Positions 4,531-33,469 of a stretch of DNA of 64,000 nt are shown in pieces. Each line of letters starts with the position of its first letter. Position 1 is the first letter of the stretch. The notes under the pieces were generated by a model. That model saw nothing but the letters and a program-made list of their open reading frames with translations. It made no database searches and was not told the origin of the DNA. Source of the stretch: Eucommia ulmoides (taxonomy: Eukaryota; Streptophyta; Magnoliopsida; Garryales; Eucommiaceae); NCBI GenBank assembly GCA_016647705.1, contig CM028332.1, positions 31,253,300 through 31,317,299 on the forward strand. The letters are read 5' to 3'. Both the position numbers and the translations under genes were made by a program.

Positions 4531-5390
4531 GACCATCTTTCTTGATCAGCTTCTGGTTCGCTCCCAACTAACCGTCTCTCTCTCTCTCTCTTCTCACCAG
4601 CTTCGACGGCTTACACTGCCATTCCCAAAGGATCAAACACCCACACACCACTCCAATGCTCCCCCACTCATCCACCCACACACATACACTACAAGCATAA
4701 GAGAAAGCACACACACACGCACATGCTGTCGACACAAAACAGAAAAATAGAGCACACTCACACGTACGACGGACAAACGGACGAGCACACACATGCACAT
4801 ACCCAGCCAACGTCTGAACAGACCCTTACGCACAAAATAACCCACTGAACGGCGATGCCACACCTACACCCACCGGAGGAACGCCGATCACCCTCCGATT
4901 CTCTTTCTCTCTATAGATTTCTAGATTTTTATTTTCTAAATTTACTTCTTTTGAGATGTTTGATCATCGTACAATGCATGGGGTATTTATATGCATGAAG
5001 ATGGTGGATGGATTTTCTCTACACGCCACGTCGTCCCTCACTCTCTTGGTCTCCAGCTGAGCTCACGATCACACACACACATATATATATATATAAAATA
5101 AACTTTGTTTTAATTACTCTTTTCCCTCCCTTAATTTCTTTAAATCCTTCTTTTAGTCCAATTCAACCTTTTTGGATTTTCTTAAATTGTAATTTCACCC
5201 CTAACATTTTAAATTTTAGATTTTAATTGACAATTTGCATCCTAAGTCTAGAATAAATGTTTTTAAATTTGCGATTTAACCCATAAACTTTTAATTTGGA
5301 TATGAATTAACACAATTTTATCCCATATTTTTTCAATTACTCTAAAATGCAACTAAAATGACGTACGTGCTAAAATTCGGGTATTACAGG

Positions 5391-5755
5391 TACCGAGTTC
5401 GGGGTTTGTTATAGTACATTAATTGTAAAATCTTTAGTTGTCCGTAGGGGAACAACCTTAAATTGGTCAAATAAATAATGAACACTCTGATTAAAATGAA
5501 GAAAAATTTTGAATGAGGAAGAGCGAAACAATTGGATAGATAATGAGCAAGATTGGAATGAAATAGGGTATATTTATATAGCGGGGGTCCAGCTGCCTGC
5601 CTACCAAAGGAATCGGCCTTCTTCAAAAAATGAAGAAGGTTGCCATCTTCTGTAGCCTTTGGTCGGTCACGTTTAACCGGCCAAGCAAACGGCGAGTCGC
5701 CGTTTGCATTTAAAAAATAAAATAAAATGTTTGATTCCAGCCTTTACAAGGCTGG

Positions 5756-5791
<36 letters not shown>

Positions 5792-5907
5792 GATCCCAGC
5801 GTTCTGATCGCCGAAATGTGTGCCTCCGGTAAATAAGTTGAAACCTCAACTGTTTCCGTAATTTTTTTAATTTATTTTTTTAAAATATTTATTCCGTAAA
5901 CAACTTG
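5391..5907 (+). mobile_element. Truncated MULE: transposase N-terminal scrap joined to a right TIR
   Basis: 5391-5455 matches the large neighbouring MULE at about 7880-7945 (shared GTAAAATCTTT-GTTGTCCGT, AGGAACAACCTTAAA). It is followed at once by sequence like that MULE's right TIR: on the minus strand a TATA motif GCTATATAAATA, a C/T-rich leader, dyads such as CCAGCCTTTACAAGGCTGG, and an end GTAAACAACT like the neighbour's. This is an internally deleted relative. Its left side is replaced by the gypsy LTR at 5388. Confidence 0.6.
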
Positions 5908-5933
5908 CACATGGCATGGCGTATTTTGGGCAG

Positions 5934-5942
5934 TGTTTTGGG
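5934..5942. other. Target-site duplication of the MULE, left
   Basis: TGTTTTGGG, identical to 16618-16626. Nine bases is the Mutator hallmark. Confidence 0.85.
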
Positions 5943-6303
5943 GAGTTGTTTACACGAAAAATATATTTTTTTAAAAAAAATCTGAAAACGTGTGTATTAT
6001 GACTTTAATATGAAACCCACGTTATCTGGCATTCGGAACACCGGGTACATATTTATTTTTATTTTTTTAATTTGTTGAACCTGACGTTCATAATGTCGAG
6101 TTCAATTAAAAATCAAACGGTGTATCACCGTTTGATCAAAACAGTAATACACCGTTTGGGTTAGTCAAACAGTACAAATGTACAATTTGACCAACCCAGG
6201 TGCAAAGGCTGCCTGCAAAGGCTGCCTTTGCAGCTAGCTTTGCAAACTGCAAAGGTACAGTCTGCAAAGCAGTCCCGATGTTGTGAATGCCAAGACCAAA
6301 ACA

Positions 6304-6313
6304 CTATATATAG
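6304..6313 (+). promoter_or_regulatory. TATA box in the left TIR
   Basis: CTATATATAG, followed by a pyrimidine-rich leader and a splice donor at 6543. The matching element in the right TIR is at 16301-16308 on the other strand. Confidence 0.6.
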
Positions 6314-6723
6314 CTTTTGAAACTCATTCTTGTTTCATTTCCCTCTTGTGATTTTTTACTTCTGAGTGTACATTCTTCATTTGCCAATCCAATTTTCTTC
6401 TTCTTGACAAATGTATCTCCTAAGTGTTCAAATCTTCCTCCTTATACCGATTTCGTTCTTGTTCCTCCTTCACAGTTTCTCTAAATAGTGTTTGTTCATC
6501 AAAGATTTCACAACTTCACAACTTTTTCCTCCTACTATAAAGGTAAGTTTGTTTTAGTTTTTTTATTTAATTTATTTGTTTGTTTGATTAGCATATTTTT
6601 TACTTATTTAATTATTTAGTTTGTTTGTTAGTTAGTTAGTCTATTTGTTTAATTTGTTAGTTAGTTAGTCCACTTGTTTAATTTGTTAGTTAGTTAGTTA
6701 ATTTAGTCATTTGATTAAAAAAT

Positions 6724-7600
6724 GTGCACTTTGGCCCCTCAAAGTTTGACAAATTATTCATGTAGAAAAATATAACTTAAAATAGAAATTATAATATATG
6801 TTTTAAAAAAAGTTGTTAGTTAGTTAGTTAATTTGAGTTTGATTTGTTAATTTAGTTGTTTTAATTAAAAATGTGCACTTTGGCACTTCAAAATTTGACA
6901 ATTTACACATATGGAAAAAATTAATTAATGAATGTACACTTTGGCCCCAGATAGTTTTTTTTTATACATGTGAGAAAATATAGGTTAAAATAGAAATAAT
7001 AATATATTGTTTTAAAAAAATAGTTAGTTTTTTAATTTGAGTTTGTTTGTTAATTTATTTGTTTAATTAAAAAATATTTAATTAAAAATGTGCACTTTGG
7101 TCCCTGAAAGTTTGACAAATTATACATGGGGGAAATTATAGGTTAAAATAGAAATTATAATATATTGTTTTAAAAAAAAATAGTTAGTTAGTTAGTTAAT
7201 TTGAGTTTGATTTGTTAATTTAGTTGTTTAATTAAAAAATGTGCACTTTGGCCCCTCAAAATTTGAAAAATTACACATATGGGAAAATATAAATTAAAAT
7301 AGAAATTATAATATATTGTATTAAAAAAAAAAATTGTTAGTTAGTTAGTTTAATTTATTAATTTAGTTGTTTAATTAAAGAGTGTACACTTTGACCCCAA
7401 ATAGGTTTTTTAATACATGTGGGAAAATATAGGTTAAAATAGAAATAATAATATATTGTTCTAAAAAAATTAGTTAGTTTTTTAAATTGAGTTTGTTTGT
7501 TAATTTAGTTGTTTGATAAAAAAAAAAAATGTTTAATTTAAAAATGTACACTTTGACCCCTCAAAGTTTTCCAAATTACACATGTGGAAAAAATAAATTA
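6724..7600 (+). repeat. ~150-bp tandem subrepeats in the left TIR
   Basis: The word GTGCACTTTGGCCCCTCAAA or a close variant starts near 6724, 6872, 6933, 7090, 7241, 7383 and 7545. The units also hold a (TTAG)n stretch and AAATAGAAATTATAATATAT. The right TIR has four inverse copies near 15535, 15672, 15829 and 15986. They lie in the putative leader intron. Confidence 0.8.
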
Positions 7601-7833
7601 TTGAGTTAATATTAACTAGACGTGGAATTTTTATTCGATCAAAGTTAAAGTTAATTAATTTATTGAATAAATTAAAAATAAATAAAATGATAAAGAATGA
7701 AAATAAATTACTCAAAAATATAAAAATGAACACTATAAACAATTGGTATGTAAACATACTTTTGTGATTGAGTTTTAGTTGACGATAATATTTTCTTGTT
7801 CTGTTTTGGGTTGTAAAATGATAGCCGCTTGAA

Positions 7834-10690
7834 ATGGAGAACGTCAGGTTATTATTGTATTGGGGTGGTAGAATATTGGATGGTACCGATGTCAGAGTTT
7901 CTTACAGTACCTTATCTGTAAAATCTTTGGTTGTCCGTCGAGGAACAACCTTAAACAAATTAATTGAGATGCTCAGACCATGTATTCTTCAGGATAGCGC
8001 TAATGGAAGTTTGAAATTAAAGTGCAGGATGTCGATGGCTCTTTTCGGGAGGAATTTTAAATATACCTTGTTTTCTATCGGGGACGACTCAGCATTAGAC
8101 TAAGTGTTTGAGTTACCTCTATACATACCCTCCATTCTTGTTGTTGAAGTGTATGTAGAGGTAGAACAAGCATTTAATGATGGTCCGAATTTTTTTCTCG
8201 TAAGTGGTCATTTTACCTATTTAATGACTCAGAGTTTTAATCCGCACAGTACCCAATCTGACAGATAATTTTTTAGCTATAATATTCCCATGTCGTACCC
8301 CCAAGTAGTCTAGTCTAATTACACCATCTCACCCCCTACATTCTAGAACAATATCATTCCCACAGTATTCTCATGTCGCACCCCCAATTACTTGAGTCTA
8401 ATTACACCGTCCCACCACATATATTCCAGAATAAGATCATTCTCATAGTATGATTGACCATGATTATGGCACCAGCTCTGCTCTTTCACATCACCATTAT
8501 TCGCCAAGTAGTCCACCGCAAGACAACAGAAATAATTATGGTGGTGAGTTTGATACAATTGATAGTCGTCACGGTATGTCAGAAGAAGACTTAGATGTGG
8601 ATGTTGCGTTGGAGCCAGAGGAGAATGATGGAGATGGAGACAAAGATCGATATAATGGGCCTAGTGGGTAAGGGAGTTAGAATCAACAATTGGAGTTGGA
8701 CATGGTTATTCTATTTTTCAATAACTTGGATGGGGGTGACGATGACGACATGGCAAAATACGAGCCAAAGTTGTGGAAGAATTTCTAGACACCAGAGATG
8801 GATGAATTCCATACTGTTATGGTCTTTAAGGACAAGAAACATGTCCAGCATGCCGTGAAATATTACCATGTTAAGAAGAACAAAGAGTATTGTGTGTTGG
8901 AAACAAACAAGAAGATTTAGTCAATTAATTGTTTGCATGGATACAATTGGATGTTACGGGTGATTATGAAGAAAAAAAATCATGGTATATTTCAGATTAG
9001 GCAGTATGAAAGGCAACACATATGTTTCTATAATCATACTACTGTAGATTATAAAAACTTGGATTCTGGTGTCATTTTAAATTTAATACTTAGACAAGTT
9101 GAACAGGATCCAGAATTGAAGATTGGCGTCATTGTAGTTTATGTGAAGGAGTCTCAGTAATTCATTATCTCCTACTGAAAAGTTTAGTTGGCTAGATCTA
9201 AAGCCATCGAGACCTTGTTTGGAGATTGGGATGAATCATATCGAAAGTTGATGAAGTATATGGTTGCATTGCAGCACTACAATTCGGGTACAATTGTCTA
9301 GTGGAGCATTGTACCGAATGATATAATTGGTTATATGATGTTTGACATGGTATTTTGGGCATTCAAACCTTCAGTTGACGGATGGTGTTATTGTCGGCCC
9401 GTCATCATGATTGACGGGACCCACTTATATGGTAAATACGAGGGAAATATCTTAATCGCCATTGGAATGACGTCGTCCAACAAGTGTCATCCTTTCGCGG
9501 TCGTACCGACCGAGGGCTACCGATGATAGAGATGGTTCATTTACATAGTTAAGTGTCACATTGTCGGTGATCGTTCTGAAGTGACATTGATATCTGACAG
9601 ACACGCCAGCATTACTAGTTGGTTAACAGTCTTTGGCTTAATCAATAGAACGAGCCCCTCTGATATCACCGATTTTATTTGCAGCACCTTTGCAGCATTT
9701 TCAACAAGATTGCTAAAAATTAGTATCTCAAAGATCTTGCTTGGAATACGGGTGTTGCGACATAAATTCAAAAGTACGATGCTATCATGGAAGAGATAAA
9801 AAAAATTGATGTTCGAGCGTATACATGGTTGAACAATATTCTAACTTACAAATGGACCAAAACACACGACAATGGTAAACGTTGGAGAGTGATGACGACC
9901 AATTACACAGAGGTATTTAACAATTGCTTGAAGGGTGTAAGAAATATTCCAATTACTGCATCCGTAAAGATTATGTTCTATAAGATGGTTAAATACTTTG
10001 ATATTGGTTGACAAGAAGCTCTAAAGGACTCAATCGATGGTTACCTATACACTAAACACGTCGTTCAAAAAATACAAAAATCTCAAGTCAAGTTCAAAAC
10101 ATACGAGATGCAAATATTCAATCAGTAAGTTAGTATTTATTATTTACTTTTTTTTTTCTTTTCTTTTTTTCACATTACATATAATTGTTGCCACACATAT
10201 TTTAATTAAATATGATATTATTTTTCTAGAGAAAATGCAATTTACCACGTTAAAACTAGAAAAACTCTTACTGGGGGCCTGATCGCTCACCAAATCACAT
10301 TAGAGGATAACACTGATTGCATATGTGGAAAGTATAAAATTTGACAATATCCGTGCTCCCATATGCTTGCGGCCATCGAGTATTGTGGCATTGATGCGTT
10401 ACGCTATATTGCAGCTGAGTAGATAATGACGAATCAATTTATAGTGTGGGAGTCATCGTTTTGGCCGATTATTCACGCGAACTACTGGCCACAGACCAAT
10501 TTTTCGAACCTAATTCTGGACCATAATAGACTTCGAGTTGTGTATCGTGGTTAACCAAACTCCACTCACATTCAAAACGAGATGGATCAGTCGCCAAAAA
10601 CAATAACAAATCGGTGTGGTTTATATTCCTAGACTGGACATGATAGGCAGAGCTATCCATCCCGACCCCGCCATACACTCAATTGATCTT
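7834..10690 (+). pseudogene. MULE transposase (MURA/MudrA type), decayed
   Basis: DNA transposase of the Mutator superfamily, which cuts at the TIRs and inserts with 9-bp duplications. Parts in order: N-terminal region from ATG 7834; MuDR-type DNA-binding region near 8800-8950 (VFKDKKHVQHAVKYYHVKKN); DDE core near 9335-9600 with CRPVIMIDGTHLYGKYEGN (first catalytic Asp) and LISDRHASI (second Asp); helical region 9787-10010; intron about 10125-10230; SWIM zinc finger CICGKY...CSHM near 10318-10365; and a C-terminal zinc-knuckle-like RCGLYS-TGHDRQSYPSRP near 10610-10670. About ten stops or frame changes interrupt it (for example TAA at 8101, TGA at 10009), so it is inactive. The start is chosen because a 3' splice site lies ten bases upstream. 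Confidence 0.85.
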
Positions 10691-10859
10691 GTCGGTTCAT
10701 TGTAATGAATGTTTATGTTACTTTATCTGTTTGTTTTGTCAACTTTTATGTATCATAAATTCCATGCACTTGTTGTACATATTTTTTTTGTAATGAATGT
10801 TATATTTTGTTTATAAATGTGATTAAATTTTAATTTCATACTAACAAATTTGACACAAG

Positions 10860-13180
10860 TGTTGGGGGGGAGGGGGGAAAATTTCAACTATGTCAAACTC
10901 TGGGCCCATAGATCTTTGAGTTCTACACATGCAGTCGGAGCACAGGTCCGCATTAGTCTGCACAGCATAGGTAAATATTTAAGTTATTACATTAATTTTT
11001 TTATTTTAGTTTTTAAAATATTTAATATTATTTATTGTGTCTTAATTAATGTTTCAGAATATTGGTGCGCTTGATTGTGTTGGATTTGATGTAGAGGGAT
11101 AGAGAGAAAACACCCCCCTCGAGTTATACAGCTGATAGAATTAGCCGATTTGTACGGCCCATTCAAGTTGTGGCCGAAGTGGTTAGATAGGTCCCTTATA
11201 ACCATGTTTGTAGAGAGATGGTGTCCAAAGACACACACTTTCCATCTACCCGTTGGGGAGATGACCATCACACTACAAGACGTGGCCGTCTTGTTGGGGT
11301 TACCCGTGCATGGGCAACCAATTATCGGCCCTTAGGACACGTGACTGGTAGATAGCTGGCAGACACTTTGTTATGGTCTCCTTGGAGTGGCACCGCCAGT
11401 GGATAAGATTAGGAATGGTTGTTTGAAGCTCAATTGGTTACGGAGAACCTTCTCCTAAGTTCTTGAGGAGGCCGATGAAGAGGCCATGCATTGCTACGCA
11501 CGTGCGTATTGCTTGATTATGCCTAGCACGATGTTGTTGCCTAATAAATCACATAACAACATCAAGCTAGCCTACCTCCCATTGCTCAGCGACTTGACAC
11601 CTACCGTCAAGTATAGCTAGGGCAGTGCGACACTAGTGGTCCTCTAACGCGAGCTATGTAAGGCATCAAAGGCCATGACGAAATACATAGTCGACTGCCT
11701 ATTTTTGTTAGAGCGTTGGGCCTAAGAACGGTTACCGAGGTTTCGACCTGAAGTTGTCCTTTTCTCCCATTATAATATATCATTCAGAGAGCTAGACTAC
11801 GATGAGAGCTTGACGTTCCCAGCCACTCCGTGGGGTGCTTAGGAAGTAATTAGTATTTTTTTTTTTTTTTTTTAATTTCATTTATCATGTAATGGATATT
11901 AAACTTATGGTTTATATTTTTTGTGTACAGGTGGACCCTTGAGTTCAATTTGAAAAATGTGTCGATGCATGTTTTGGTGGTCTATTGCGCGATCAGTTAG
12001 ATCGGTTGCAGAATAACGAGCTTAGTTATTTATTTACATCAAAATTTTAATTTTTTTATTTGTTTATTTATATATTTTTTACAGGTCATTTGGATGCCCT
12101 ATCTCCTGTCGACTTTACCTCTATATACTAGAGATAGAGAAGATATATGGATGACAATGTCGCCCCCTATTTGCTAAAAGATCGTCGAATATACGTATCC
12201 CATGTGCGTGATACGACAATTTAGTTATCAGCAAGGGATTCCTCAACCGATAATTATAGATAAGAAGTTGCACAAAATTACTCGGCGATGACACTTCGGT
12301 GCGAACTGGACTGAGAAGCACCACACACATATAGTTGCGTGGAATAGGCGACGAGCATCAAATGTGGGCAGCTTCGAGTAAGAGATAGGGGTTAACCAAG
12401 AATACATGGACTGGTATTGGAGAATCACACGAAGGTTATTGGTCAACCTGGGGTACCGACTTGAGTTCAGTTATCTAGCAACAGGAGGACTAGCGCAGTT
12501 AGATGTATGATCACATTGAGTATACCATCTATTTACTTATATGAGTTTGATTTTCTTGCTATTATTAATGTATTAACTTAACGATCACATGTGTTTCGTA
12601 GGATCCAAAAATATCGTATCTGATGCGCTTGGGTCATCTTTCTCCACGGACGCATACTCTGGACTCATACCAAGAGACTTGTCAAGCCAACTGACGTTCA
12701 TCTATCTCCTCAGCCTGCTCCTCAGCCATGGATTTGTGACACCTACCATCCAAGTAGTGTAGATGATGCCAAATCTTCTACAACGTACAATATGAGTGCT
12801 AATGTCAAACCATCTAGTACGTACGACATGGGTGATGATGTTGAGCCGTTCGACGTGTACCAGATGCATGACCCTTATTCCCATTACACATTACAGCTAC
12901 GTACACAACCATCATCGTTATTTATTACTCCGGCAATGGGCGAAATTGTGTCTACTTCAGGCGTGATTCCTCCGATGGCATTTTTCCAACCCACAAGATT
13001 GGAAAGACAAATGTCACTGGTGCCGTAGTTCGGGGAAGACGAGGATACCACCTGGGGATGATGCAACAACCGTTCATGGAGTTTGTACAGGTTACATAGG
13101 TTTATGAAGAGGCTGAGGAACCTCCTATTACTCAACGCCGAGGGCAGAAGAACATCCGACGTAGAGGTTGTGGTACATAG
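10860..13180 (+). pseudogene. Plant mobile domain (PMD) gene inside the MULE, decayed
   Basis: Resembles the plant mobile domain of MAIN/MAIL proteins and 'phosphatase 7 long form' annotations. MAIN/MAIL1 act in plant silencing and genome maintenance; many PMDs travel in transposons. The signature is clear at 11150-11335: WLDRSLITMFVERWCPKTHT then FHLPVGEMTITLQDVAVLLG. Later blocks are RELCKASKAMTKYIVDCLFL (near 11650), the VIWMPY block (from 12088) and YMDWYWRITRRL (near 12402), ending RRGCGT with TAG at 13178-13180. Introns fit at about 10971-11057, 11849-11930, 12020-12085 and 12509-12601. Several in-frame stops (for example within GP-DT at 11333) mark a pseudogene. It follows the transposase in the same direction. 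Confidence 0.8.
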
Positions 13181-13269
13181 TTATGTAAATACTTTTTTTT
13201 TTCCACATAGTTATATAGGAATGTACATAGTTAGTAAATACCTTTTTTTGTAATGTTTGTAATTTTAGA

Positions 13270-13541
13270 AAGTTGTTGATCTACCGTATATATTGCTTCG
13301 CAAATGGATAAAGCATTTGAATGGGGGATCGAGAAGGTGTCTAAGATTCTGGAGAAATTCTTAAAAGGCATACGGAGTGGAAAATGGTTGAGTATGTGTG
13401 TATATATATATATATATTCAACCATTTTCCACTCTGTATACTTTTTAAGAATTTCTTCGGAATCTTAGACAGCTTACTCGATCTCCTATTTAAATGTTTT
13501 ATCCATTTCAGAAGCAATATACACAGTAGATCAACAGCTTT
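13270..13541. repeat. Long hairpin: ~125-bp inverted arms, ~20-bp loop
   Basis: 13270-13394 is the inverse of 13415-13541 with few mismatches. Paired words include GTTGATCTAC with GTAGATCAAC, TGGATAAA with TTTATCCA, and GGAGTGGAAAATGGTTGA with TCAACCATTTTCCACTCTG. The loop is a TA/TG repeat. It lies just past the 3' end of the PMD gene, between the convergent gene sets, so transcripts from either side could fold into double-stranded RNA. Confidence 0.9.
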
Positions 13542-14059
13542 TTATATAAATACATATTGATGTACATTATTATACACGTTTGTTGAATTTTCTACTCCAT
13601 CTTCGAGACTTGTATATTTTCATCGTAAATTTGAAAGATTATTTTTCGAAGGCAGACATGATATAGACAAGGTATATTAAAGACAATACATAACAAACAC
13701 CACCACCTATTAATTGAAACAACACTTAACTAAAGGATAATTTCATTTATTTCACCTAATATATTATAGAGCACATTGAAAGAGTATAATATTAAAGACG
13801 AAACAACTTAATATAATCATAAACATCATATTGAAATTAAACATGTTAACAAGTACAATTAATTATAAAAAGAAGAAAAAAATATTACATAAATTAGAAA
13901 CATGTTTAACGGTGTTTGTTAAAAAACTCATAACAAAGACAATAAATAAGAAATACAATACATAACATCACGGAAATAGTGATAAGAAAACACTTAAAAA
14001 GACAATTGAATTGCCAAAAATTCTTTATTCTTCATTGGACATGTACCCCTTAAACAAAT

Positions 14060-14579
14060 ATTCATTGTTATTTCTGACGTTATGGTATTCGTTTGGAAAG
14101 AGTACTCAGTTAGTTGCGGTAGCCATTTCATTGGTTAGTTGTAGTAGATAATATCAATTCCTGTGCAACAATATTCGATTATTCTCCAGGCGAATTCGTG
14201 TAATAGCATCTTCAATCTCGGTTGTGTCAACAATTATACATCATCTAGGCATCTGAAGACTTTGACGATACGGAAAAGGTGCATTAAGATCTCTCAAACA
14301 AGATACGAGGTTGTTAAACTCATTCACCCTGTATTCCCATTCTTGGCATAGACCGACGCGATACTCTATCGGGTTGGTGTTTTGATCACTCCACTAGTCA
14401 TCATAATATAATTGTAGAACCCAACATCTTTGGTGATTCCAGGGTCCAGGCCAACCCCAAACACAATATGAGTTCTCCTCACTTGAAAAACCAAATGAGC
14501 TTTCTTCACTTGAATTAATATTTGAAGACATCACAAAAATTATAGGTTGAGTAATTTCTTTACAAATATTATACTGCAC
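14060..14579 (-). pseudogene. Minus-strand MULE ORF 2 (unknown protein, broken)
   Basis: No family recognised. On the minus strand the frame from ATG 14579 reads a Ser/Glu-rich start (NINSSEESSFGFSSEENSYC), then EWEYRVNEFNNLVSCLRDLN and IEDAITRIRLENNRILLHRN. Stops interrupt it near 14394, 14250 and 14160. It shares the spacing of YRVN, L..A..R.R.ENNR and a closing MA with the ORF at 14918-15256, so the two look like diverged copies. Both point away from the right TIR as a mudrB-type second gene would. Confidence 0.45.
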
Positions 14580-14917
14580 ATTACGAATTTACAAAAAAAA
14601 AAAATAGTTTTTTTTTAAAACCTAATTACTGAAAAATGATGTTTTAGAACTTATGTACAGGAGACTTAACTAAAAAAAGCTAACCCAACACCACTTATCA
14701 ATTGAAAGAGATAAAGTCAGCTATTTGGTAGAAGTAGCGTTATTATAATTTAACGTAAAAATGATATATTAGACTTAAAAGGAAATACATAGTTAAACTG
14801 CAATTCATCAATGCAAAAATATTAAACATTACTCTCATCATCAGACATTTCAATATCTTAATGATATTGAGGTTGTCTTGCGCATCCCATGTAAGTATGC
14901 GCTTCGGCAACCAAACC

Positions 14918-15256
14918 TTATTCGAGATGCTCACGTGCCATCATTTTAATCTCGTGTAGAAAAATTCGAATTTGCATTCGGTTATTTTCTTTGCGGTAGC
15001 GATGCAACGCCATTTGAAGATTATGCGGCGTGTCTATTGGCATTGTTCTGACCAATTGATACACTATTGCAATATTATATTGCTTGCATTCGTCCACCAT
15101 AATCTCTGTTTGGTTGACACGATAAGTGTATTCCTCCCGCATCCTTGCAACCCATCGTGAAGAGTAACGAACTATTAGATCTAAAGAGTATGAAAATTCG
15201 TCTTCCAAAAGCCAGTGACGTCCTATTGAACGATACAGATTTCTCACCATGTACAT
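14918..15256 (-). CDS. Minus-strand MULE ORF 1, 112 aa, unknown function
   Basis: An open 112-residue frame on the minus strand starting at ATG 15256, right at the inner edge of the right TIR, whose TATA box and splice donor lie upstream. No known domain recognised. It is basic and helical-looking, with RYSSRWVARMREEYTYRVN, then MALHRYRKENNRMQ and a closing HEIKMMAREHLE. It is the longest frame on this side and has no stops, unlike the plus-strand genes. A second ATG at 15263 opens a different frame and seems less likely. The position matches the second gene of two-gene MULEs, but I see no similarity to MudrB. Chance cannot be excluded. Confidence 0.45.
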   Translation of the reverse strand: MYMVRNLYRSIGRHWLLEDEFSYSLDLIVRYSSRWVARMREEYTYRVNQTEIMVDECKQYNIAIVYQLVRTMPIDTPHNLQMALHRYRKENNRMQIRIFLHEIKMMAREHLE

Positions 15257-16617
15257 TTTTCAATCGTTTTCATTTTATTTATTTTTAATTTAGTCAATAA
15301 TTTAATTAACTTTCAATGGAATATAATTTCAACATCAAGTTAATATTAATTCGATAGATTTAATTAATTTGATTTTAATTGAAATACTAAAATTCATTTT
15401 AAAATATTAAAAGACTAAAAATATATTTTTTAAAAATAATAAAATAGTTTTTTCAAAGACATTAAAAAAAAAAAACTAACTAACAACTAAATTAACAAAT
15501 TAAATTAATTAAATAACTAACATTTTTTGAGGGGCCAAAGTGTACATTTTTTAATTGAACAACTAAATTAATAAATTAAACTAACTAACTAACTAACTAA
15601 TTTTTTTTAAACAATATATTATAATTTTTTTTATATTTTTCTACATGTGTAATTTATCAAACTTTGAGAGGCCAAAGTGCACATTTTTAATTAAATATTT
15701 TTAATTAAATAACTAAATTAAAATTTTAAACTAATTAACTAACTAACAATTTTTTTTAAAACAATCTATTATAATTTTTATTTCAATTTATATTTTTTTA
15801 CATGTATAATTTGTCAAATTTTAAAGGCCAAAGTGCACATTTTTTAATTAAACAACTAAATTAACAAATTAAACTCAAATTAAGTAACTAACTAACAATT
15901 TTTTCTTAAAAAAAAAAATAATATATTATAATTTATATTTCAATTTATAATATCTCAAATGTATAATTTACTCAAATTTTGAGGGGCCAACGTGTATAAT
16001 TTTTAATTAAACAACTAAATTAACAAATTAAACTAACAAACTAACTAAGAAATTAAACAACTAATTAACAAATTAAATAAGTAAACTAACTAATTAACAA
16101 ACAGATTAACTAATTAATTAAAACAAGTAAAAAAAACATAGTAATCAAACTAACAAATAAATTAAACAAAAAAAATAAATTAAACTTACTTTTATAGTAG
16201 AAGGAAGAAGTTGTGAAATTATAAATTTTTTGATAAACAGACACAGCAACAAAAAGTATGAAGTAGGAAGAAGGCAAATGTAAGTTAAAACGTGAGGGGT
16301 TTTTATAGCATTTTGGTCTCAGCGTTCACAACGTCGAGACCGCTTTGCAGACTGTACCTTTGCAGTCTATAAAGCTAGCTGCAAAGGCTGCCTTTACAGG
16401 CAGTCTTTGCAGCTGGGTTGGTCAAATGGTATATTTGTACCATTTGTATTTTAATTGAACTCGACATTATGAACGCTGGGTTCAACAAATTAAAAAAATA
16501 AAATAAATATATACCTGGTGTTCTGAACGTCGGGTAGCGTGGGTTTCGTATTAAAGTTACAATACACAAGTTTCCAAATTTTTTTTTAAAAAAGATATTT
16601 TTTGTGTAAACAACTCA
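15250..16617 (-). repeat. Right TIR of the MULE: mirrored promoter and splice site
   Basis: Read on the minus strand it repeats the left TIR: same dyads and GCTGCCTTT words, TATA box CTATAAAA (16301-16308), C/T-rich leader, 5' splice site AAAA|GTAAGT (GT at 16188-16189), and about four ~150-bp subrepeats against seven on the left, which explains most of the length difference. Its inner edge reaches the start of the minus-strand ORF near 15256. Confidence 0.85.
16301..16308 (-). promoter_or_regulatory. TATA box in the right TIR
   Basis: CTATAAAA on the minus strand, in the same TIR context as the left-hand box, about 1.05 kb upstream of the minus-strand ORF. Confidence 0.55.
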
Positions 16618-16626
16618 TGTTTTGGG
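16618..16626. other. Target-site duplication of the MULE, right
   Basis: TGTTTTGGG, identical to 5934-5942. Confidence 0.85.
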
Positions 16627-29536: not shown

Positions 29537-32500
29537 TGGTATCAAGAGCCAATGTTTCCTTACTCTATTTCTGTTAAAATTTTCGAAACCCTAATCTTAA
29601 GCCTTCCACTGCACAATTACATCTATTGACTGCTACGATCCCATCATTGCTCCAAAATTAACTCTCATCATAGCAACACCTTTGTCTCAAAGAGACGATC
29701 ACAACGCTATCAAAATCAACGCCAATGGAGTTTTAACGTGCCCTCACGTGCCACCAACGCTAGCAACAATACTCCCACCAAATCGTCACTGATTTTGGGC
29801 TCTACCGCCTCAACCAAGGTTCCAAATCCATTGCAAACCATATCATCGGAACCGTCTCGACGAGATGATTCCAAATCCACCAATAGTGTCCTGATCCGAT
29901 ACGTGCCTACGCTACTATTCAACGATTTATCCCTACCACGCTAGCCCTAATCAATGCCCATTAAATGCCCACATCAGCCATTGACTACCACGTCAGCCGT
30001 TGACTCTACCACATCAGTGTCCAATCATCTTATTTGCCACGTTAGCTATTCTTAGAAGTACTATTCTTTGGACCAGTTCAGGCCTTTTTAGACCGATTTT
30101 CTACAAAGTTAGATTAGTTCCTAGGGTTTTTAGATGTTCTAATTTTGTTTTCGGACTCTGTTTTCTGATTTGAGACTCACATAATATACTTCCTTTTATA
30201 TTCGTGTGGTTTCTACACAGGTTTACCCCCTTCTTTTCACCTATGGTTAACTCAGACTCATCCTGGGTTGTCACTACTGTTCTAAATGAATCTAATTATG
30301 TTATATGGGCTCAAGAGATGTCTATTTTTCTTCATGGACATAAATTATGGCGTTTCGTAATTGGAGAAATTACTAAACCCAAGAAGAATGACGATGAAGA
30401 TGTTGCAGGATATACAAATCTTCTAGAAGAATGGGATAGCAAAAATCATCAGATTATCACATGATTTTGTTCTACTATCATCCAATCTTTTAAAATCCAA
30501 TTTGGTAGACTTCAGACAGTTAAGGAAGTTTGGGATCTTCTCCAGCACTACTACACCAAGGCAGACATATCGTATCAATATCACCTCATTTCCACCCTCC
30601 ACATCATGCACCAAAAACTTAGGCAAACCGTCAACAGTTTTCTATCTTAGATAACTATCGTGTGGGATCAATTGGCTATCACTGAGTCAATCTGGGAATG
30701 CACAAAAGACGCAACCATTCAGATAAGCTACCAAAATGAGACGCACATTATGCAATTCGTGAAGGCTTTGAGGGAAGAATTTGAGTCTGTATGAGCTTAA
30801 ATCCATTACCGGGGTAAGATATCTTCCCTAAATGATGTCATTTTTTATCTACTCAGCGAGGAAACATGCCTTGCTACATTATAGAGATCAAATACAAATG
30901 GTGTTCTTGCCTCACCAGTTACTTTTGCTACACTAGTTGCCAAGCCAAACTCATCCCAGAAACCCTTATACTGCAGGTATTATCATTCACAAGGGCACGA
31001 ATTGCTCAAATGTTCTTCTCGCCTGTGTAAGGTATGTAAAGAACCAAGCCACTATATTGTAGATTGCCCTAAACTTCTAGCATCATCATTTGAAAATCAA
31101 TCAAATGAGAATCTGTATCGCTTTCGAGGCTCTCGCAATTGGTCTTATCGCAAGCCAAAGAATGCTTCCGCTGCAGCCACTGATGCTGCCTTGACTTTTT
31201 CAAACTCTCCACTTGATTGAACTGGTTTCTGCACCGTGCTTACCGAGACTCTATCTAAAACTGGTAATAATATAGTCATGTCAGCTACACCAGGTACATC
31301 TCGATGGTATTTTGATTCTGCCTGCTGTAATTACTTGACATATGATGCCTCTATCTTTTCTCTAAAACCCGTGATGAGCGTGCACCTACTATTCACACTG
31401 CTGATAAATCAAATATGTCAGTTAGGCATACTGGACATGTTGATAGTTCTCATTTATCTCTCCTTGATACATATTTGGTCCTTAATCTTACGCTTAACCT
31501 TATATCTATTGGACAACTATGTGATCTTGGATTTGATTTGCATTTTTCTTCTACTAGTTGTCGTGTGCAAGACCCTCAGACAGGAAAACTCCTTGGATTT
31601 GGCTGTAAAGTTGGACGTCTCTTTGAGCTTACTCACCTCCAAGTCATCCTCATCATCACCAAATCAATCAGCCGTATTTATCCTATCACTCTCACCCGTG
31701 GAATTGTGGTATTCTCGGTTAGGTCACACTTTATCCAGTCGTCTTCATTTTCTTATTTCTAGTAGTTAGTTAAGTTCAATTCAGCATGAATCTTTTCATT
31801 ATATTCATTGTCAACTTACAAAACAATCAACTTTACCTTTTAATGGGAGTCAGTTTGTTTCCCTTACACCTTTTGATTTAATGCATTCCGATGTTTAAGG
31901 GCCTTCTCCTCATGCAACAATAGGTGGTGCTCGCTATTTTGTTATATTTGTGGATGACTACTCTCGATATGCATGATTGTTTCTTATGAAAAATAGACTT
32001 GAACTATTTCAATTATATTCTTATTTTTCTTCTATGATTCAAACTCATTTTTCTTAGAATATCACAATTTTTCTTTCATATAATACAATGGAATACAAAG
32101 ACCGTGGTTTTCTCAACCTGCTTCACAAAAATGACACACTCTCCTACCGCTTGTGTCCTTAAACTTCACAAAAAAATGGACGAGCCAAACGTAAACATAG
32201 ACACATTCTTGACACAATTTGTGCTCTACTCATTTCTTCATCCTGTCCTAGCGCTTTTGGGGTGATGCTACCTTAACTGCAGTATATACAATAAACTGTG
32301 TCCCTTTTACCACGATCTAGCATCAGTCTTCATTTGAGCGTCTATTCAGTAACATCTCTCTTACTCTGAATTCAAAGTCTTTGGTTGTGCTTGTTTTGTT
32401 CTTCTCAAACCACGTGAACACAACAAACTGAAACCAAGGGCTCACCTGTGTTGTTTTATTGGATATGGTATTGAACATAAAGGGTATCGGTGCTAGGATC

Positions 32501-33469
32501 CTAAAACTCTTTGTATCTCTCGTCATGTCATTTTTTGGGAACATCAAATGTTCTCTTCCTTACGGTCATTTGACATGTCAACCGTCACTAACTCCAAATT
32601 CTTTACTGATCCATTTGTTGAATTATTTCCTAAGGATACAGTTTCAGGTACTGTTGAACCCATCTCAGAACCACCAACTGATCTCACCCCTTCAGTCCAA
32701 AAACCACCAAATAGTATCACATTTCCAACTCCAGCTCCAGAACCACCAGTTGACCTCACCCCTTCGACTCAATCGATTGTGCCTAAGGATATTCCTATTT
32801 CTGATGAGTCTGCACCGACTCCATTTGAGAGTCATCCTCCAGATCAGTCCCATTGGTCTACCATGGTTACTCATCATTCTCCTTATCTTACTAATTATTA
32901 TTGCTTTTCTATTATATTTTATATATACGAGCCTCAATCCTACAAGGAATGTAGTATTAATCCTCTTTGGTAGAAAGTAATGGACGAAGAACTACAAGCC
33001 CTAGCCAAAACTCATACCAGAGATTTTGTTGATCTTCCTCCCTAGGAAAACTCTTATTGGGTGCAAATGGGTATTTAAGATCAAAACAATTTCTGATGGT
33101 TCTATTGAATGATATAAAGCTTGACTTGTTACCAAGGGATTTGCTCAGGAATATGGCATTGACTATGAAGAGACGTTTTCTCCAATGGCGAGGCTCAAAT
33201 CTATCCGTACTCCTCTTGTCGTTGCTGCCATTTGAAAATTGACTCTCTTTCAGATGAATGTCAAAAATGCATTTATCAATGGTGATCTTCTTGAGAAAGT
33301 TTATATACATACCCCTCCTAGTCTAGTTTCCCCTCGAAATAAAGTTTGTCGCTTTCGTTGTGCCTTATATGGGTTGAAACAAGCTCTACGTGCCTGGTTC
33401 GCAAAATTCAGTACTACCATTCATCAGTTTGGGTTCACATCTAGTGATGCGAATCTCATCAAGAATTAG
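29200..33469 (+). mobile_element. Ty1/copia fossil, plus strand, lacking its 3' part
   Basis: 5' LTR at 29200-29536, then gag-like sequence near 30243-30640 (ESNYVIWAQEMSIFLHGHKL), a CCHC knuckle region near 31000-31070, a pre-integrase block near 31700-31760, and reverse transcriptase near 33239-33469 (QMNVKNAFINGDLLEKVYIH, CALYGLKQALRAW). The order gag-integrase-RT identifies copia. It is broken in many places and ends abruptly at 33469; RNase H and the 3' LTR are not seen in this orientation. Confidence 0.85.

Follow-up and report, generated by a model that had tools for sequence, protein, structure and literature searches.

MuDR of maize, the founder of Mutator, has long terminal inverted repeats (TIRs) with promoters and transcription starts, expresses gene sets from both ends and has its MURA transposase bind within the TIR, according to the passages cited here (PMC3440606, PMC3310237). 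We describe a Mutator-like element (MULE) of similar layout in a 64,000-nucleotide stretch of the Eucommia ulmoides genome (contig CM028332.1, positions 31,253,300 to 31,317,299; C8:31253300-31317299 in our genome searches), hereafter called the window, to whose first letter all plain positions refer. Where the TIRs of MuDR measure some 215 bp and transcription starts lie near +165 or just inside, those of the family described here reach 0.7-3.7 kb and can hold a tandem array as well as a leader splice donor motif, neither of which is described for MuDR in the passages cited. The window element further adds a plant mobile domain (PMD) gene and two reading frames, termed ORFR1 and ORFR2, for which Pfam gives no match above cut-off. 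In our best explanation, to which we give a probability of roughly two in three, the locus holds a dead copy of a large multi-gene MuDR-type MULE family, abundant and partly young elsewhere in this genome, in which each TIR would act as an expression end and transcription would converge from both sides.

Multi-ORF and PMD-bearing MULEs are already known, and the element is a PMD-bearing MULE with an unusual TIR. Abermu of barley and other plants, a MULE of 8.2 kb, likewise has its transposase and a second open reading frame (ORF) on one strand and a function-unassigned ORFR on the opposite one; by description, which is the basis of this comparison, its TIRs are 138-145 bp long and the function of ORF2 is unclear (PMC9168764). 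Transposase plus PMD, sometimes in antisense, is recorded for the majority of members in several groups of plant MULEs (MUDR, MUDRAVI2, MDR, MULE-Monocots and others, besides MULE-PMD fusions) in the cited parts of two papers (PMC6446971, PMC5418596), but the surveyed TIRs span 14-500 bp (PMC6446971), far below the 1.4-1.8 kb found in the window and the ~3.7 kb reached in subfamily A (see below). VANDAL21 of Arabidopsis, the VANDALs being MULEs as well (PMC6446971), shares the multi-ORF organisation and tandem repeats in noncoding regions (PMC5735166, PMC10398659), whereas VANDAL TIRs are described as degenerated (PMC10398659) and those of the window are long and array-bearing. Modular or internally repetitive long TIRs are reported for the MULE/Foldback types MuTAnT (Medicago), Tm1 (nematode) and FARE (Arabidopsis), and MuTAnT inserts in TA microsatellites, as did the subfamily A copy (PMC4486113, PMC3169594); a leader exon or splice donor within their TIRs is not described in the passages cited. 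Among the open-access titles and abstract openings listed, none mentioned either feature inside MULE TIRs, a result that holds for these texts and claims no absence from print.

The element spans positions 5943-16616. An earlier note on this DNA had placed its right end at 16617; the element itself proved real. It is bordered by tgttttggg at 5934-5942 and 16618-16626, a target site duplication (TSD) best taken as 10 bp with one mismatch (gtgttttggg at 5933-5942, atgttttggg at 16617-16626, the inner 9 bp of the two copies being identical). This TSD, the TIRs and the transposase domain described below place the element in the MULE superfamily, as had been proposed; the group usually has SWIM and a TSD of 9 bp (PMC6446971, cited in part). 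The left, transposase-side TIR (5943-7735, plus strand) aligns end to end with the reverse complement of the right, ORFR-side TIR (15250-16616, minus strand) over 1,341 columns at 82.4% identity, with 478 gap columns and 138 transitions versus 98 transversions among the differences, and the match thus extends well past the few hundred bases that the earlier note had set as a minimum. Its innermost columns are poorly aligned. The left TIR ends some 100 bp short of its ATG (7834) and the right one at the ATG itself (15256), in agreement with the claim that the TIRs reach the start region of an ORF. By segment, identity amounts to 87.7% of 163 columns at the terminus, 86.7% of 150 in the upstream promoter region, 85.0% of 40 within 20 bp on either side of the donor and 82.0% of 645 in the subrepeats. 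The arrays are AT-rich and self-similar, a property from which low-complexity repeats might imitate a TIR by chance. This explanation is hardly credible, being refuted by a Smith-Waterman score of 824, where 50 dinucleotide shuffles reached 56 at most; moreover, the 163 terminal columns are non-repetitive, a TSD is present and related ends recur throughout the genome.

Within both TIRs the same parts follow one another in the same order, as the earlier note had it. A TATA-like box (6305-6312, plus strand; 16301-16307, minus strand) lies 238 bp before the donor on the left and 118 bp on the right. It is followed by a putative leader exon, which is pyrimidine-rich on the left (6335-6542, plus strand, its 5' end guessed at ~30 bp past the TATA-like box) and occupies 16190-16277 on the minus strand of the right arm (5' end also guessed), and then by the 5' splice site motif GTAAGT (6543-6548, plus strand; 16184-16189, minus strand). 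The roles of box and donor are predicted from sequence. The hexamer alone says little, since it occurs 15 times on one strand of the 64 kb and 16 times on the other; the two TIR motifs do occupy matching places in the TIR alignment. Downstream lies an array of ~150-bp subrepeats, with seven cores on the left, in the putative leader intron (6700-7592, plus strand), and four on the right (15523-16034, minus strand). Tandem Repeats Finder (TRF) gave periods of 150-159 bp, and a 16-nt core, searched with up to three substitutions, was found seven times in the left TIR, four times in the right and nowhere else in the window. The recurrent core, present in both arms, reads approximately AAAATGTGCACTTTGGCCCCTCAAA. 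Units of the two arms are not in one-to-one register; the best pairing is L3 with L6 (92%), which suggests that subrepeats of the left arm were duplicated later.

The cassettes enclose four coding units rather than the two genes of a MuDR-style element that had been assumed, and the two-gene reading is therefore ruled out. On the plus strand, a transposase exon with N-terminal part and MULE domain (7825-10124, ATG at 7834) is broken by stops and a frame change, and is followed, across an intron at 10125-10229, by the last transposase exon with a SWIM zinc finger (10230-10703, end approximate; PF04434, 4e-6). The PMD gene, also on the plus strand, has several exons and is broken (10890-13180; PF10536, 7e-48 and 1e-13). 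The minus strand carries ORFR1 (14822-15256, broken by two internal TAA) and ORFR2 (14027-14531, broken). In the window copy, SWIM and PMD score above the Pfam cut-off, and the MULE domain (PF10551, 7e-5) stays below its curated cut-off with 23.6 versus 27.6 bits; in a relative of subfamily A, MULE (2e-17), DBD_Tnp_Mut (PF03108, 8e-8), SWIM and PMD (PF10536, 3e-60) all lie above it. We take the N-terminal part of the transposase, which has no Pfam match, to be PB1-like. For ORFR1 and ORFR2, a comparison with Pfam gave no family above cut-off, either in the window copy or in the A homologues: ORFR1 of the window has only sub-threshold matches (TATR 0.0026, AAA_19 0.17), its open A homologue has no Pfam match up to an E value of 0.1, and ORFR2 has none in the window copy or in A. 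One 81-amino-acid piece of the PMD gene had no relative in a viral_contigs scan or a PDB sequence search. A candidate intron at the GTAAGT at 8200 was rejected, as the A exon is open over 754 codons counted from the transposase ATG and the B frame is open across the matching point. An 83-bp tandem duplication (81% identical) was noticed within the transposase exon at 8283-8451.

We searched the plant's own genome for relatives (946.7 Mb, 391 contigs). For the left TIR, 40 of 1,815 candidates were scored, which makes the counts lower bounds; there were at least 99 matches. Among the best 150 of 1,469 candidates for ORFR1, all 150 scored places held relatives (own copy counted), and 42 rows counted by hand were without any stop. 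The best 40 of 1,046 transposase candidates include a run of equal scores, which suggests near-identical copies. The search for full-length relatives that the earlier note had proposed thus yielded long elements with two such arms, and the younger ones keep the plan.

Two of these elements were read over their full length. That of subfamily A (C5:545773-559928), located in a TA microsatellite, measures 14.2 kb with TIRs of ~3.7 kb on the left and ~2.9 kb on the right; its transposase (754 open codons, then the SWIM exon) shares a strand with ORFR1 and ORFR2, and the PMD gene lies on the opposite one. That of subfamily B (C2:4223607-4236651) measures 13 kb with TIRs of ~0.7 kb, and its gene order is that of the window. 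The last transposase exon, ORFR1 and ORFR2 are open in both, and PMD exon 2 is open in B. In A, both arms carry CCTATAAATATCA, a leader and CACAG/GTTAGT, with the TATA box at -135/-134; in B, both carry CTATAAA, a leader and AGGAG/GTAAGT, with the TATA box at -152/-153. TATA box, leader and donor are present in 16 of 16 arms of eight younger elements (five B, three A), hand-picked from the best matches; their arms were located via the donor motif, and none was discarded after fetching. In A the arrays have 15.0 units of 191 bp and 8.2 units of 190 bp; B has a single array, with 6.1 units of 316 bp, on its left side. As leader and donor lie within the TIR in all three subfamilies read (window type, A and B) while the array differs, we regard the array as a variable extra. 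Two shorter pieces of ~1.5-1.7 kb with TIR parts in both orientations (C2:1324706-1326221 and C15:28902907-28904605) look like Foldback-type non-autonomous relatives.

A putative 3' splice site, ATGATAG/CC at 7823-7824 (plus strand), would end the left leader intron (6543-7824). The motif, ATGATAG|CCGCTTGAAATGG, is common to the window copy, A and B, where it stands before the transposase ATG. The putative acceptor directly preceding the PMD ATG is TTTCAG in both relatives; the window copy has TTTCAA. Among the three, a good acceptor for ORFR1 is present in B only.

According to the earlier note, TIRs of this kind would oblige the two gene sets to use common signals for expression and splicing. 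This holds for termini and leader-donor blocks, which are near-identical between arms, but not for the upstream block, which is arm-specific. In all eight younger elements, a 50-bp window over the donor is identical between arms at 49-50 of 50 positions. The upstream block, however, reaches only about 47-74% between the arms of one element, compared with 96-99% in four same-side pairs. In the B element on C2, for example, positions -351 to -152 agree at 110 of 166 sites between arms and at 198 of 200 in a left-left pair from two loci (191 of 200 in a right-right pair of B); in the A element on C5, the block from -273 agrees at 39 of 67 sites between arms, same-side pairs of A giving 88/89 and 98/100. 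We conclude from near-identity at the donor and arm-specificity upstream that the gene sets share leader and donor, not the whole promoter.

Trees of the arms point in the same direction. With the 16 younger arms, which give the firmer test, a branch with support 1.000 separates the two sides in each of A and B. A FastTree analysis of 29 arms with alignable donor (12 from the transposase side, 11 from the ORFR side and 6 of unassigned side) recovered a group, with local support of 0.953, of nine of the 11 ORFR-side arms, one transposase-side and one unassigned arm. From this panel, A_L, A_R, B_L and C16_422_L were excluded by hand as unalignable there, as were L021 (same place as L014), loci overlapping those used, and L011 and L024 (donor not aligned). 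The tetranucleotide that directly precedes the donor is aaag in 10 of 12 arms on the transposase side and aaaa in 8 of 11 on the ORFR side. With the B left arm as query, some matches extend over all 703 bases (82-100%) and others stop near base 689 (81-84%); read by extent as left and right arms (the identity ranges touch), they would agree with the split. These comparisons indicate that the left arms form one line of descent and the right arms another.

In subfamily A, the PMD-ORFR block is inverted (C5:545300-565299; L063, L033, L034), so that PMD lies opposite to the transposase, on whose strand it is found in the window and B, and the right cassette adjoins PMD instead of ORFR. At its borders, the inverted block has an inverted repeat of 204 bp, 93.6% identical, that includes the transposase 3' end, a remnant of which stands at both edges. 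Because the PMD gene of A is still preceded by such a remnant, we take the gene order of the window and B as ancestral. One might go further and regard the arms as portable cassettes that evolve separately and drive any acceptor-led gene block, with inversion re-assigning the genes, a leader that may join more than one gene, and intronic arrays serving as docking sites for a factor that the element encodes; we hold this extension to be tentative and rather improbable.

In the more conservative explanation that we prefer, that of TIRs as expression ends, each TIR would consist, in order, of a terminus presumed to bind the transposase, an arm-specific upstream control block, a TATA box, a pyrimidine-rich leader exon, a 5' splice site and an intron, in many cases with a tandem array inside, and transcripts from the two ends would converge. 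The left cassette would serve the transposase, its leader being spliced to the acceptor just before the transposase ATG, and PMD, with an acceptor-like site at its own ATG, would probably depend on alternative splicing or read-through. For the right cassette, the gene served would be the adjoining one, that is, ORFR1/ORFR2 in the window type and B and, after the inversion, PMD in A.

Several points weigh against this explanation. No convincing acceptor was found upstream of ORFR1 in the window copy and the aligned window-type relatives. The leader is the least conserved TIR segment of the window copy, strongly divergent between its arms (71.1% over 114 aligned columns, with 120 gap columns). 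Of the 29 arms in the panel, 20 retain GT (among the younger arms, all 16 do), and three of the 23 arms with an assigned side are misplaced in the tree (O_C19_L and O_L029 among the transposase-side arms, T_C12_111_L among the ORFR-side ones). In 25 old arms, four of the 29 having been dropped for poor alignment, the first G of the donor is kept in 18, below the local mean of 0.92; as evidence of constraint, donor conservation in old copies therefore failed. Local exchange, as opposed to selection, could account for the high leader-donor identity between arms. Both full relatives are broken in part, A having one stop in PMD exon 2 and B a transposase exon out of frame after 369 codons, and a palindrome of the window copy (see below) is absent from A; our confidence was slightly lowered accordingly. 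The anatomy, its recurrence in the family, the lineages of the arms and the inversion are demonstrated; promoter activity, splicing, transposase binding and past methylation we infer from sequence.

The poor retention of the donor G in old copies would also suit a neutral history, in which arrays and long TIRs grew in a Foldback-like manner through slippage and unequal exchange, terminus and promoter being the sole functional parts and the donor motifs incidental. Unit size and copy number vary freely, from ~150 bp with seven and four copies in the window to the A and B arrays given above, array counts differ between arms in other elements too, and Tm1 and Foldback elements have variable, internally repetitive TIRs (PMC3169594, cited in part). 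We nevertheless find neutral growth a doubtful account, given that the donor window, unlike the upstream block, is almost invariant between the arms of all eight younger elements, and that a consensus-like donor at the corresponding position, together with an acceptor-like site preserved at the transposase ATG, recurs in each of three diverged subfamilies.

A role for the arrays themselves would be compatible with TIRs acting as expression ends: those of the leader intron might be targets of an anti-silencing factor encoded by the element (ORFR1, ORFR2 or PMD), in the manner of the VANC proteins, which bind short motifs in noncoding tandem repeats (PMC5735166, PMC10398659). Anti-silencing use of a MULE-captured PMD has been suggested as well (PMC5418596; like the preceding papers, cited in part), the extra ORFs are open in many copies, and the recurrent core occurs in the arrays of both arms. 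Factor binding remains putative, however, with ORFR1 and ORFR2 lacking a Pfam family above cut-off, the B right arm has no array and the array units differ between subfamilies, all of which makes this proposal quite unlikely.

The window copy is dead, as follows from its many stops and a strong C>T/G>A excess. We counted one stop in the N-terminal part of the transposase, 10 and 4 in two frames of the transposase exon, nine in PMD exon 2, three in ORFR1 (native stop counted) and four in ORFR2; in A and B, both ORFRs have open homologues. Over the 1,348 sites at which these two subfamilies agree, the window copy has 134 changes of its own, 86 of them C>T or G>A, whereas such changes account for 25 of the 90 specific to A (at sites where window and B agree). 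An excess of this type is the mark expected of long methylation, by which the window copy was probably scarred. Remains of an A-like relative abut the element at 5388-5463 and 5812-5905, comprising a transposase-start fragment (93% identical to A) and a right terminus (~73% to A's end). ORFs outside the element at 31221-32973 may be remains of a copia-type retrotransposon.

Between the convergent gene sets of the window copy lies a near-perfect palindrome with arms of ~140 bp (13266-13544), which folds at -190.5 kcal/mol compared with a mean of -57.0 (sd 4.7) in 100 shuffles. When the best 40 of 606 candidates were scored, it was found at a minimum of about 40 places, with at least 82 matches; by coordinates, at least seven of the other places lie inside or within ~12 kb of matches to a family arm, ORFR1 or transposase. 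The B element has both palindrome arms, ~1.3 kb apart, and the A element only one. The family can therefore do without the hairpin, and we dropped it from the mechanism. In a panel of 21 copies (20 fetched, L043-L062, and that of the window), 95.6% of 2,159 cells pair, compared with 35-48% in slid controls; 21 pairs are changed on both sides versus 12.9 in shuffles (0 of 500 shuffles reached 21), and all 21 folded copies retain the palindrome with compensating changes. By strand, G-U pairs number 197 versus 104 over the 21 copies, and the plus strand is the more stable one in 17 of 21. Neither result was accepted as proof of selection on RNA: covariation would arise alike from arm-to-arm DNA repair, with the structure taken from the same alignment, and for the G-U bias the copies have a common ancestry, and their orientation had been set from their similarity to the window. 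Either RNA selection or DNA repair between the arms may thus maintain the palindrome. MuDR antisense transcripts arise through termination failure between the two genes, according to the cited part of PMC3440606, and a terminator role for the palindrome is therefore a guess.

The usual explanation for long TIRs in MULEs invokes transposase binding and promoters; in three diverged subfamilies of the present family, the repeat also includes a leader and donor motif, and the segment that varies most from arm to arm is an upstream block. What seems obligatory for both ends (terminus, leader and donor) can now be separated from what each end may own. With its abundance and its many open ORFR1 copies, the family should make RNA and chromatin tests feasible in the living plant, and the inversion in A provides a natural gene swap that bears on arm-specific expression.

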